Of a stretch of DNA of 64,000 bases, positions 43,976 through 47,794 are shown one piece after another. The number at the start of each line of letters is the position of its first letter. The stretch's first letter is position 1. This DNA comes from Comamonadaceae bacterium (GTDB lineage: Bacteria > Pseudomonadota > Gammaproteobacteria > Burkholderiales > Burkholderiaceae_C), in the NCBI GenBank assembly GCA_947375135.1, contig CANCER010000008.1:62001-126000 (forward strand). The letters are read 5' to 3'. Position numbers and translations under genes: made by a program. The notes beneath the pieces are model-generated. The model saw only the letters and a list, made by a program, of their open reading frames with translations, was not told where the DNA came from and did no database searches.

Positions 43976-45436
43976 ATGATCTCTCGCGAACCCACCATCG
44001 AACGCCTGGCCACCGCCAAGTCCCTGTTGCTCACCCCCTTTGGCCTGGATGAAACCCATCTGGCCCGCGCCCTGAACGAAATCAAGGCGCACAAGGTGGA
44101 CGAGGCCGATCTCTACTTCCAGTACACCCGCTCCGAGGGCTGGAGCCTGGAAGAGGGCATCGTGAAGACCGGCTCCTTCAGCATTGACCAGGGTGTGGGT
44201 GTGCGGGCCGTCAGTGGCGAGAAGACGGCGTTTGCCTACTCCGACGATATTTCCGAGGCCTCGCTCTTGGATGCGGCGCGCACGGTGCGCACCATCTCCA
44301 GCGCGGCCAAGTCGGCCCGCGTGAAGACCGCCACGCAAAAGATCGCGGCTGCGCGCAGCCTGTACACGGCGGTAGACCCGATCTCCACGCTGGACAGCCA
44401 GACCAAGGTCGATTTGCTGGGCAAGGTGGAACGCCTGGCCCGTGCCAAGGACCCGCGCGTGGCCCAGGTCATGGCCGGCCTTGCCGCCGAATACGACGTG
44501 GTGCTGGTGGCGCGCGCCGATGGCACACTGGCTGCCGATGTGCGCCCGCTGGTGCGCCTGTCGGTGACGGTGATTGCCGAGCAAAAGGGCCGGCGTGAGG
44601 TGGGTTCGGGCGGCGGCGGTGGCCGTTTCGGTCTGGCGTATTTCACCGATGCGCAGATTCAGGAGTATGTCGACCAGGCCGTGCATGCGGCTTTGACCAA
44701 CCTCGACGCACGTCCGGCCCCGGCCGGTGAAATGACGGTGGTGCTGGGTTCCGGCTGGCCCGGCATTTTGTTGCACGAGGCCATCGGCCACGGGCTGGAA
44801 GGGGACTTCAACCGCAAGGGTTCCAGCGCCTTCAGCGGGCGCATCGGCCAACGTGTAGCCGCCAAGGGCGTCACTGTGCTGGACGACGGCACGATTGCCG
44901 ACCGCCGTGGCTCGCTCAATGTGGACGACGAGGGCAATGCCAGCCAGCGTAACGTGCTGATCGAGGACGGCATCCTCAAGGGCTATATCCAGGACAGCAT
45001 GAACGCCCGTTTGATGGGCGTGGCGCCCACCGGCAACGGCCGACGCGAAAGCTATGCCCACATCCCGATGCCGCGTATGACCAACACCTACATGCTGGGT
45101 GGCGACAAGGCACCGGAAGAGATCGTCAAGAGCATCAAAAAAGGCTTGTACGCCACCAACTTCGGCGGCGGCCAGGTCGACATCACCTCCGGCAAGTTTG
45201 TGTTCTCTGCGTCTGAAGCCTATTGGGTGGAAAACGGCAAGGTCCTGTACCCGGTCAAAGGTGCGACCATTGTGGGCAGTGGCCCGGAGTGTCTGAAGCG
45301 CGTCAGCATGATCGGCAACGACATGAAGCTCGACAGCGGTGTGGGCACCTGCGGCAAGGAAGGCCAGAGCGTGCCGGTGGGTGTCGGTCAACCCACCCTG
45401 CGCATTGACGGCTTGACCGTCGGCGGCACCGCGTAA
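43976..45436 (+). CDS. tldD: Metalloprotease TldD
   Basis: 486-residue subunit of the TldD/TldE zinc protease, which cleaves unfolded peptides, processes microcin B17 and degrades CcdA in E. coli. The active-site motif is [13 protein letters not shown] (HExxxH) near residue 265. [30 protein letters not shown] and the C-terminal [17 protein letters not shown] are family blocks. The catalytic subunit requires TldE (PmbA), not present here. The gene starts just 22 bp after the palindromic element, whose arm may affect its promoter. Confidence 0.95.
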
Positions 45437-45453
45437 TTCCAAGGGCAGGCGGC

Positions 45454-46170
45454 TTGCGTCCCTTTATGGCGGGTGCGCGCGACACCTTCCCCATGCTGGT
45501 GGGGGCCGCACCCTTCGGCGTGATCTTCGGCACCCTGGCCATTGGCAGCGGCCTGCCGGTCTGGTTGACGTTGGGCCTGTCAGCCCTGGTGTTTGCGGGC
45601 TCCTCGCAATTTGTGGCGGTCAGCTTGATAAGCAGCGGAACGGCCTTGCCGGTGATCTGGCTCACCACCCTGGTCGTCAATTTGCGCCATGCGCTCTACA
45701 GCGCCACGCTCCTGCCTTACGCGCGGGAACTGCCCGCGCGCTGGCGCTGGGCTTTGGCCTTTTGGCTCACCGATGAGACCTTTGCAGTGGTGGAAAACCA
45801 GTTGCGCCACCACGCCAGCCTGAAGGACGGTTCCCGTTACTGGTTGGGCTCGTCCCTGGCGATGTATTTCAACTGGCAGCTTTGGACCGTTGTGGGGGTA
45901 CTGCTCGGCCAGAGCGTGCCGGTGCTGGCTACGCTGGGGCTGGACTTCGCCATGGTCGCCACGTTTGCCGCCATCGTCGCCTTGCAGTTGCGTGAGCGCC
46001 CTGTGCTGTTTGCTGCGCTGGTGGCCGGAGCGGTGGCACTGCTGGCGCGTGGTCTGCCGTACAAACTGGGTTTGATGCTGGCGGCTATCGCAGGCGTCAC
46101 CACGGGCGTTTTGGTGGAAATGTGGTCGGAACAGGTGCGCACACCCGCAGACCAGGGAGGCCGGCCATGA
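45454..46170 (+). CDS. azlC: AzlC-family branched-chain amino acid exporter, large subunit
   Basis: 238-residue membrane protein of the AzlC/YgaZ family with about six to seven hydrophobic segments. The N-terminal [18 protein letters not shown] block and the [14 protein letters not shown] segment are typical. With AzlD it exports branched-chain amino acids. The TTG at 45454 has an AGGGCAGG-like site before it; ATG 45466 is an alternative. The stop overlaps azlD at ATGA. Confidence 0.9.
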
Positions 46171-46490
46171 ACACCGAACAGGCCTTGATCCTGGCCGGCA
46201 TGGTGGTGGTGACCTACGGCATCCGCCTGAGTTTTCTGGTGTTCGGTCACAGCGTACAGTTCCCCGCCTGGCTGGAGCGTGCTTTGCGCTATGTGCCGGC
46301 GGCGGTGCTGACCGCGCTGATCGCACCCATGGCACTGGCGCCGCAGGGCGGCATCGATGTGTCGCTGCACAACGCCTATCTGCCCGGCACCATCGCCGCC
46401 ATCGCGGTGGCGCTTTGGACGCGCCAAACGCTGGCCGCGATTCTGGGCGGGTTTGTGGTCTATGGCCTGTGGCGTTGGCTGGTGGTGTGA
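46167..46490 (+). CDS. azlD: AzlD-family exporter, small subunit
   Basis: 107-residue protein with three to four membrane segments, matching the AzlD/YgaH partner family: [19 protein letters not shown] at the start, [21 protein letters not shown] in the middle. It overlaps azlC by 4 bp and has GGGAGG just before its ATG. The two products form one export complex. Confidence 0.9.
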
Positions 46491-46527
46491 AAGCTTCGCG
46501 ATAAAAACATGTGCTACATTGCGATTC

Positions 46528-46596
46528 ATGTATTCAGTGACTTTTTTCTTTAGCTACTTTTGGTTCTCAAGCGCCTGCGGCGGTAGAGAGATCTGA
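46528..46596 (+). CDS. Aromatic-rich leader peptide of aroG
   Basis: 22-codon frame reading MYSVTFFFSYFWF then SSACGGREI, stop TGA. It has five Phe, two Tyr and one Trp, eight aromatic residues within the first 13 codons. It lies 100 bp before aroG and is followed by a hairpin with a T-run. This is the pattern of an attenuation leader such as the pheA leader of enterobacteria: ribosome stalling at aromatic codons would let transcription continue into aroG. No strong ribosome site is visible before the ATG. Confidence 0.75.
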   Translation: MYSVTFFFSYFWFSSACGGREI

Positions 46597-46656
46597 ACGT
46601 ACCTGAAAAGTACCGAATCTTCAAACAACCGCTGGCACCCCCGGCGGTTTTTTTTT
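46581..46656 (+). promoter_or_regulatory. Transcription attenuator of aroG
   Basis: The terminator stem pairs 46627-46635 (AACCGCTGG) with 46641-46649 (CCGGCGGTT), 9 bp with one G-T pair, loop CACCC, followed by a T-run to 46656. Upstream, CGGTA (46581-46585, at the end of the leader peptide) can pair with TACCG (46611-46615), and the nearby GCGGT can also pair with ACCGC of the terminator, giving competing structures as needed for attenuation. Confidence 0.7.
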
Positions 46657-46696
46657 GCCACCTCTTTTTGTTTGTTTTAACCCAGGGAAGAAGCCC

Positions 46697-47794
46697 ATGA
46701 CCACCAAAGCCCACACCAGCGCCGACCGCACTGGCATTACCGACGACGAACGCATCAAGGACATCACCGTGTTGCCACCTCCCGAGCATCTGGTTCGCTT
46801 CTTCCCGATTCAGGGTACAGCCGTGGAAAAACTGATTGCGGACACCCGCCATGCGATCCACAACATCATGGCCGGCACGGATGACCGCTTGCTGGTCGTC
46901 ATCGGCCCCTGTTCCATCCACGACCCGGCCGCTGCCGTGGAATACGCACGCCGCCTCCAGGAAATGCGCGTCAAATACGCCGACACGCTGGAAATTGTGA
47001 TGCGCGTCTACTTCGAAAAACCCCGCACCACCGTGGGCTGGAAGGGTCTGATCAACGACCCCTACTTGGACGAGAGCTTCCGCATCGACGAAGGTCTGCG
47101 CATTGCGCGCCAACTGCTGATCGAGATCAATCGCATGGGTCTGCCCGCCGGTAGCGAGTTCCTGGACGTGATCTCGCCCCAGTACCTGGGCGACCTGATT
47201 TCCTGGGGTGCCATTGGTGCCCGAACGACGGAGAGCCAGGTGCACCGCGAACTGGCCTCCGGCCTGTCGGCGCCTATTGGCTTCAAGAACGGTACCGACG
47301 GCAATATCAAGATCGCCACCGACGCCATCCAGGCGGCAGCCGGCGCACACCACTTTTTGTCGGTGCACAAGAACGGCCAGGTGGCGATTGTGCAGACCAA
47401 GGGCAACCCGGACTGCCACGTCATCCTGCGCGGCGGCAAGGCACCTAATTACGATGCGGCCAGTGTGGCTGCGGCCTGTGCCGAACTGGAAAAGTCCAAG
47501 CTGCCCACCACGCTGATGGTGGATTGCAGCCACGCCAACAGCAGCAAGCAGCACGAGAAGCAGCTGGAAGTGGCACGCGACATTGCCGCCCAGATTACGG
47601 CGGGTTCGAAGAGTGTGTTTGGCGTGATGGTGGAAAGCCATCTGCAGGCCGGTGCGCAGAAGTTCACGCCGGGCAAGGACGACTCCAGCAAGCTGGAATA
47701 CGGCAAGAGCATCACCGACGCCTGCCTGGGTTGGGACGATTCGCTGGCATCGCTGGAGGTGCTGTCCCAAGCGGTGAAGGCGCGCCGGGGTTGA
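46697..47794 (+). CDS. aroG: 3-deoxy-7-phosphoheptulonate (DAHP) synthase, class I
   Basis: First enzyme of the shikimate pathway, condensing PEP with erythrose-4-phosphate. 365 residues, class I-alpha (E. coli AroF/G/H type). Family blocks are VVIGPCSIHDPAAAVEYA near residue 75, RVYFEKPRTTVGWKGLIND near residue 105, GARTTESQVHRELASGLS near residue 175 and MVDCSHANSSKQHEKQ near residue 275. ATG 46697 follows CAGGGAAG. Which aromatic amino acid inhibits the enzyme is not clear by eye. An aromatic-rich leader and terminator precede it. Confidence 0.95.
   Translation: MTTKAHTSADRTGITDDERIKDITVLPPPEHLVRFFPIQGTAVEKLIADTRHAIHNIMAGTDDRLLVVIGPCSIHDPAAAVEYARRLQEMRVKYADTLEIVMRVYFEKPRTTVGWKGLINDPYLDESFRIDEGLRIARQLLIEINRMGLPAGSEFLDVISPQYLGDLISWGAIGARTTESQVHRELASGLSAPIGFKNGTDGNIKIATDAIQAAAGAHHFLSVHKNGQVAIVQTKGNPDCHVILRGGKAPNYDAASVAAACAELEKSKLPTTLMVDCSHANSSKQHEKQLEVARDIAAQITAGSKSVFGVMVESHLQAGAQKFTPGKDDSSKLEYGKSITDACLGWDDSLASLEVLSQAVKARRG

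Follow-up and report, generated by a model that had tools for sequence, protein, structure and literature searches.

The window, that is the whole 64-kb stretch of DNA that was analysed, carries at 46697-47794 (+) a gene whose product scored 540.6 bits against the DAHP synthase model TIGR00034 (cut-off 173.2) and also lies above the cut-off of NF009395. The AroG-specific model NF006723 gave 551.6, slightly below its cut-off of 568, and therefore "aroG" is used here as a label only. A PmbA/TldD gene, followed by AzlC and AzlD genes (PF03591, PF05437; branched-chain amino acid transport family), occupies 43976-46490, with the AzlD gene ending about 20 bp before an extended -10 element. The earlier note had described, in the interval up to aroG, the order leader, alternative stem, terminator and gene, and the coordinates (46528-46596, 46627-46656 and 46697-47794) bear this order out. 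The features are as follows.

46510..46520, + strand: putative extended -10 element TGTGCTACATT, with -10 hexamer TACATT at 46515-46520
46528..46596, + strand: leader peptide gene of 22 codons plus TGA, MYSVTFFFSYFWFSSACGGREI, with transcription presumed to start at or adjoining its ATG
46555..46566, + strand: core control codons Tyr10-Phe11-Trp12-Phe13, the aromatic positions common across leaders
46564..46568, + strand: region 1 (UUCUC), able to pair with GAGAG of region 2 to form a 1:2 hairpin, from folding and the swap test
46578..46590, + strand: region 2 (CGGCGGUAGAGAG), the antiterminator 5' strand CGGCGGU (46578-46584) plus GAGAG (46586-46590), from nucleotide conservation and covariation with region 3
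46627..46635, + strand: region 3 (AACCGCUGG), common to antiterminator and terminator, from folding and compensatory changes with region 2
46641..46656, + strand: region 4 and U run (CCGGCGGUU then U), the 3' arm of the predicted intrinsic terminator, from folding
46697..47794, + strand: aroG, DAHP synthase, the putatively regulated gene, with a Shine-Dalgarno-like AGGGA at 46684-46688

The pathway to all aromatic amino acids opens with DAHP synthase, whose control by TyrR and TrpR in gammaproteobacteria is textbook knowledge. Neither the TrpR model (TIGR01321) nor the TyrR-type HTH model (TIGR04381) had a match in any of 21 genomes, comprising 13 of the window's genus (its own genome included) and eight of other families in the order, while E. 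coli, the positive control, was detected; 13 of the 21 had a completeness of 90% or more and a contamination of no more than 5%, the window's own genome being about 90% complete. The contrast drawn earlier with the E. coli repressors thus holds, and a comparative study likewise gives TyrR and TrpR as absent in the surveyed classes other than gammaproteobacteria (PMC5343134). The 22-codon frame, with eight aromatic residues within its first 13 codons as the earlier note had stated, is an outlier in the window: of the 754 ATG frames of 10-45 codons on its two strands, only this frame and its longer in-frame version reach eight, the runner-up having six. When the 320 bp upstream of aroG were shuffled with dinucleotides preserved, 1 of 5000 sequences attained eight aromatics.

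Conservation of the aromatic codons was assessed, as the earlier note had proposed, in the aroG upstream regions of many Comamonadaceae. An AroG protein search of 150 family genomes gave a match in 149; upstream regions were read in the 143 genomes whose best match was among the matches listed, the other six having weaker matches that were left out. The results showed an aromatic leader ahead of the best aroG match in 140 of these 143. Under a strict test (an ATG and at least five aromatics in 11 residues) 137 passed, and three more had a plain leader when read, namely L130, where the automatic pick was the wrong frame, and L149 and L216, where four of 11 residues are aromatic. Two of the three exceptions run into contig ends 132 and 113 nt upstream (L218 and L223); the third is L222. 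In that genome (G140) two DAHP synthase genes lie in tandem, and the leader stands only before the first copy (L221). One locus, L151, passes the strict test through a wrong, longer ATG frame; its likely leader begins with GTG. A second set of loci on named contigs, partly overlapping the first, had the leader in 79 of 80, with 77 passing the strict test, L087 and L103 showing a leader when read, and L036 having only 49 nt of upstream sequence. No leader was found before the six paralogous DAHP synthases examined (L225-L230), nor was one seen by eye before the two paralogs in the window's own genome (57% and 61% identity). Removal of ten loci (L036, L218, L222, L223 and the six paralogs) left 220, of which 212 unique sequences form the main set, 136 from family genomes and 76 from named contigs, a few of the latter (e.g., Solimonas L093) lying outside the family. 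The contig of L093 (Solimonas sp. SE-A11) is titled as from a gammaproteobacterium, and its AroG is 79% identical to the window's, with a complete leader of this type before the gene; a joint transfer of gene and switch is possible, as is a foreign origin of the contig. Another locus, L085, has a divergent leader with Phe only (MKNFLQFGFFKNFLTAPGAAQRV) and the antiterminator strands GGGGCGG/CCGCCCC.

For the spread beyond the family, a covariance model (R1) was built on 144 main-set sequences and run on 300 genomes of the order, where the element was found in 74, one being the window's own. All 73 others (L233-L301, L328-L331), eight of which belong to the window's family, stand ahead of a DAHP synthase gene. 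A class draw gave 7 of 321 genomes, three of the window's family, and a phylum draw gave 18 of 200, divided into four of the family, one of the order, three of the class and ten of another class, presumably the Alphaproteobacteria; all ten of these last (L308-L310, L321-L327) precede DAHP synthase. In this other class a wider model, R2, matched 9 of 240 genomes; in the window's own class it matched 7 of 274. Among the 17 loci L304-L320 from the class, phylum and R2 draws, DAHP synthase lies downstream in 11; L313 is at a contig end, its downstream gene unreadable. Outside the order, the R2 matches L316-L320 scored 28-34 bits and do not stand before DAHP synthase; they were discounted as due to chance or to the terminator alone, and a weak second match in the window's own genome (L232, E = 4), without DAHP synthase, was likewise set aside. 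These counts are lower bounds with rough E-values, given stricter filters in the large draws and a model trained on the family. Examples of distant leaders are MNAARASFYFWYYFPKPLAEEGLRSP (L304, window's class) and MITVATNYFWYFSYDSSLAAGGSRSI (L308, other class). The element is sparse elsewhere in the phylum, and every convincing match with a readable downstream gene precedes DAHP synthase. It is kept before DAHP synthase in a strongly reduced genome of the order of 1.2 Mb (L281, G340; MAAKLYFYFFANLKLAEGDGC). At L328 (G434) the hairpins are kept before DAHP synthase and the best frame, MHASPRPLRFCRPRSTAVGRQ, has one Phe, which is possibly a loss of sensing or a different start.

We next considered which amino acids the leaders could read. 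Phe codons occur in 212 of the 212 main-set leaders, Tyr in 207 and Trp in 197; in 61 leaders of other families of the order, where the most aromatic frame was taken as the leader and the choice thus favours aromatic content, the corresponding numbers are 61, 56 and 25. Four weaker order matches outside this count have no Trp, L328 having its single Phe and L331 three Phe and one Tyr. Judged from the sequences, Phe is the common signal; Trp persists in some lineages and has disappeared from others. The earlier proposal of a leader reading all three aromatic amino acids therefore stands for Phe, which is near-universal, and for Tyr, which is usual, but is lineage-dependent for Trp; and rather than sensing total aromatic supply, such a switch is better described as relieved by a shortage of any one amino acid in the effective codons. 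Synonymous codon use in the leaders is free (TTT 564, TTC 319, TAC 206, TAT 109, TGG 193), and aromatic residues swap places between leaders, as in FYFWFFIS, FWFGFYFS and FAWFYFS. In 174 of 204 leaders the Trp codon is the fifth or sixth before region 2. These observations bear on the possibility that the nascent peptide itself arrests the ribosome on a free aromatic amino acid, with the peptide sequence and not the codons as the sensor. Nascent-peptide arrest of the ribosome with tryptophan is the case of TnaC, and in the main set the YFWFS core shows strong conservation, 190 of 212 leaders having F, I, H, L, S, Y or T after FW. However, the aromatics change places, Trp is lost in several families while the Phe-rich content stays, and the C-terminal half is not conserved as a peptide, its frames differing between leaders, so that we regard a peptide sensor as very improbable and favour the reading of the codons by a translating ribosome.

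The second half of the leader behaves differently from the first. The consensus of region 2 is GGCGG, two or three bases and then GAGAG (GG[TC]AGAGAG was too strict a pattern, found in 16 of 110 loci). Relative to the leader, this string is in frame 0 in 164 of 204 main-set sequences, in frame 2 in 38 and in frame 1 in 2, and in other families it is in frame 2 in 45 of 61; a stop codon lies inside or adjoining region 2, at most 8 nt from the start of GGCGG, in 21 of 204. Region 2 is thus conserved in nucleotides despite shifting frames and stop codons, which argues that it is conserved as RNA; as far as sequence comparison tells, the first half of the leader is conserved for aromatic amino acids and the second for the RNA string GGCGG..GAGAG. 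In Acidovorax/Comamonas-type leaders a TGA stands at the antiterminator strand (GGCGG[AC]TGAGAGG; L025, L039, L043, L062, L072, L098, L105, L158 and others), the peptide being shortened and the RNA kept. Conservation of GGCGG..GAGAG at the nucleotide level could also be expected if a trans-acting RNA or protein bound the leader RNA and the frame were a by-product, and the rnTrpL RNA of S. meliloti shows that attenuator leader RNA can act in trans (PMC7298713, PMC10117765). Such binding would, however, leave the aromatic codons and their cut-off before region 2 unexplained. We therefore consider it most unlikely as an explanation in place of ribosome-mediated attenuation, in addition to which trans-acting control may exist.

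The transcription start was approached through the promoter. The -10 hexamer ends 6-8 nt ahead of the leader ATG in 195 of 212 main-set sequences, and no conserved -35 element was found. Because the hexamer anchor was chosen by a score that rewards TG, the resulting logo is partly circular; in an anchor-free test, TGnTAnnnT lay 5-9 nt before 196 of 212 leader ATGs versus 5 of the 1205 further ATGs in these stretches. The base before the leader ATG is a pyrimidine in 93%. A Shine-Dalgarno-like tetramer was found before 0 of 212 leader ATGs; applied leniently at the possible aroG start, the same test was positive in 101 of 158, with 51 loci having no start before the match. In other families (n = 61) TAnnnT occurs at the same place in 29 and TGnTAnnnT in 18, and the arrangement is thus not universal. 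The extended -10 element at 6-8 nt together with the lack of a Shine-Dalgarno-like tetramer suggests that transcription probably starts at or adjoining the ATG and that the leader is probably leaderless, a feature overlooked in the earlier description of the leader. An extended -10 motif TGnTA has been described for leaderless mRNAs in Bradyrhizobium dRNA-seq data (PMC4842269), and leaderless mRNAs have been reported in Burkholderia cenocepacia and Cupriavidus metallidurans (PMC4603805, PMC7563307); aroG, attenuation and leader peptide do not occur in the main text of these last two papers.

We then examined the hairpins. By fold energy, no other single structure at the locus comes near the terminator: its stem (46627-46649) has nine pairs, six of them G-C, with an energy of -14.1 kcal/mol (z -2.99), equalled by 0 of 200 shuffles, and its T run reaches 46656, 40 bp before the aroG ATG (46697), as the earlier note had claimed of a strong terminator. 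The antiterminator would pair CGGCGGU (46578-46584) with ACCGCUG (46628-46634), within the 5' arm of the terminator. Taken alone, it has an ordinary energy (-14.5 kcal/mol, z -0.99; 27 of 200 shuffles equally good), and so has the 1:2 hairpin (z -1.22), for which reason single-sequence fold energies were set aside as the main argument. The competing hairpins described earlier are thus confirmed in that antiterminator and terminator share region 3 and have comparative support, but not by the energy of the antiterminator; its support is comparative, not energetic. To the antiterminator and terminator of the earlier picture the overlooked 1:2 hairpin has to be added. Once region 4 is included, most sequences have the terminator as their fold of lowest energy, and 2:3 persists in 38 of 204 main-set sequences and 15 of 61 others. 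It follows that antitermination must be kinetic, the choice being made while region 4 is still unmade.

The comparative evidence came from covariation and from a swap test. In 82 aligned sequences of many families, 58 cells of the 2:3 pairing had changed on both sides, compared with a shuffle mean of 28 and 0 of 500 shuffles with as many; one of the pairs is C-G in 29, U-A in 27 and unpaired in 20. On this alignment 84.8% of 2:3 cells are paired versus 24-47% for slid controls, the alignment having been built with a model that already held the 2:3 structure and so leaning towards it. On a structure-free alignment (A1) 14 cells of 2:3 had changed on both sides (0 of 500 shuffles), with a covariation score reached by 4 of 500 shuffles; the weaker signal is partly due to the misalignment of frame-shifted region 2 on A1. 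The terminator is nearly invariant on A1, its nine pairs being intact in 96.2% of cells over 144 sequences; three pairs have changes on both sides (1 of 500 shuffles), and the covariation score is not above shuffles (255 of 500). A check of both stems by covariation, proposed earlier, thus succeeds for the compensatory changes of the antiterminator but not for the terminator, whose score on A1 is no higher than that of shuffles. The swap test is alignment-free and made between families, with 87 sequences of 14 families (26 of the main set, 61 of other families). It gave uncorrected p values of 0.011 for 2a:3, 0.0006 for 3:4 and 0.035 for 1:2, and of 0.17 to 0.63 for four control pairings; with a first choice of region 3, wrong in some sequences and later redone by folding, p was 0.078 for both 1:2 and 2a:3. 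The GAG:CUC extension of the antiterminator (2b:3b) failed the test (p = 0.43) and was dropped as a firm part of it. Six loci (L029, L111, L143, L156, L199, L012) show a matched change, region 2 being CCGACG and region 3 CGUCGG, by which the antiterminator is preserved and the terminator retains a G-U pair; L178 and L203 (GGCGG with CCGUC) look like a half-way state to this. The covariation of regions 2 and 3 argues against a constitutive, partly leaky terminator with an aromatic frame of no sensing role, as do the aromatic content in 140 of 143 family genomes and the conserved spacing to region 2. The dominance of the terminator among the single structures is what such an element would show, and L328 does keep its hairpins without an aromatic-rich frame; we nonetheless give a mere leaky terminator hardly any weight beside a terminator controlled by leader translation.

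The placement of the codons was compared with the geometry of a ribosome whose leading edge was assumed at +13 nt from the first base of the A-site codon. Eight main-set sequences without a pattern match for region 2 (L032, L042, L083, L087, L155) or the terminator (L064, L204, L205) were left out, giving 204. The last aromatic codon lies a median of 14 nt from region 2. With a ribosome stalled at this codon and RNA made up to region 3, 2:3 was predicted in 200 of 204 main-set sequences and 56 of 61 others, and with the ribosome at the stop codon the terminator 3:4 was predicted in 204 of 204 and 61 of 61. When the stall site was moved, 2:3 was predicted in at least 98% for stalls five, six or seven codons ahead of region 2 and in no sequence for stalls one to three codons ahead. 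Aromatic codons follow a similar course, with frequencies of 83-95% at 5, 6, 7, 8 and 10 codons before region 2, 46% at 4 and at most 1% at 1-3, and this cut-off matches a leading edge of +12 or +13, more poorly one of +14, and is off by at least one codon for +10, +16 and +18. In this model the aromatic codons end about where a stalled ribosome would start covering region 2; the structure of regions 1 and 2 could by itself exclude aromatic codons near region 2. Comparison and folding, with the edge assumed at +12 or +13, find here a control-codon frame, a mutually exclusive antiterminator and terminator, and codons placed to choose between them.

Leader content, antiterminator, terminator, spacing and linkage to DAHP synthase, as established by comparison, and the compensatory changes of 2:3 support the attenuator reading of the earlier note, and a ribosome-mediated transcription attenuator of aroG is in our view, with high confidence, the best explanation of the element, which very probably switches the pathway on when Phe, Tyr or Trp run short. 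For the start site, stalling, termination in the cell, the role of 1:2 and the response to each amino acid, we infer the following course. RNA polymerase would start from the extended -10 promoter at or adjoining the leader ATG, and a ribosome would probably load on the leaderless 5'-terminal AUG. With charged Phe-, Tyr- and Trp-tRNA ample, the ribosome would reach the stop codon and cover region 2, leaving region 3 to pair with region 4, and transcription would end in the U run near 46656. Were any one charged aromatic tRNA short, the ribosome would stall among the aromatic codons; a stall at YFWF would be the most effective, with region 1 covered as well. Region 2 would be left free to pair with region 3 before region 4 is made; no terminator would form and aroG would be transcribed. 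In the absence of a ribosome, region 1 could pair with region 2, and the terminator would form.

Attenuation of a DAHP synthase gene had already been reported. In Corynebacterium glutamicum the aroR leader before aroF encodes a Phe-Tyr-Phe leader peptide, and stalling on shortage raises transcription of the DAHP synthase gene (PMC11802643, PMC7356990); this is an Actinobacterium, the reported response is to Phe limitation and not to Tyr, and Trp is unmentioned in the parts of these papers available. The uORFC-13-1 motif before aroF in Acholeplasma, a uORF with one or more Phe codons and a terminator ahead of DAHP synthase, comprises 24 sequences from one genus and environmental DNA and is predicted only (PMC8632094); the same source tells that aroF attenuation in E. 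coli was once hypothesised (Camakaris 1980). Putative attenuators before a DAHP synthase-tyrA operon are listed for two Vibrio species in a table of PMC1173090, and PMC11802643 names the E. coli trp and pheA leader attenuators. Leader peptide RNAs that begin at the AUG, leaderless, are described for Sinorhizobium meliloti trpL and for Streptomyces (PMC7298713, PMC10117765, PMC8079986), with other amino acids and genes, and with a start reported from data there and deduced from the promoter for the aroG leader. The E. coli TyrR and TrpR proteins serve the same step and purpose, but as DNA-binding regulators (PMC5343134). Rfam 15 at gathering cut-offs gave only three tRNAs in the 64-kb window, and in 46480-46720 with E up to 10 only RNAI, sroD and NsiR1, all far below their cut-offs. 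The amino acid leader and T-box families of Rfam 15 gave no covariance-model match. The aroG leader follows the four-region logic of the E. coli trp and pheA leaders, with control codons near region 1, a 2:3 antiterminator and a 3:4 terminator; those leaders read a single amino acid for a terminal branch, whereas the aroG leader would read up to three for the first common step. Among the matches listed in a literature search, which most subscription journals lay outside, no report of the present element from Proteobacteria was found in the text available. The attenuation logic is thus known; new are an RNA family outside Rfam, a start that is probably leaderless and, in most main-set leaders, codons for all three aromatic amino acids.

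A broader reading of these data together is offered tentatively, as one we would not ourselves expect to hold in full. The element might represent an old family of RNA switches, widespread in the Pseudomonadota from the Burkholderiales to some other lines of gammaproteobacteria and one or more further classes, that governs the first aromatic step where TyrR and TrpR are missing. Phe, Tyr and, in many lineages, also Trp would be its inputs in an OR gate, the leaderless start would serve to time the ribosome relative to the polymerase, and the terminated RNA of about 129 nt and the hydrophobic peptide may have trans-acting roles too, like S. meliloti trpL. Such a conserved family of attenuators would allow a natural test of one leader reading several amino acids and would supply those working on aromatic production with a ready-made sensor. 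It would exemplify for betaproteobacteria, across a whole family, an attenuator whose leader is probably leaderless, and it would fill the TyrR/TrpR gap for many Burkholderiales and some other lines.
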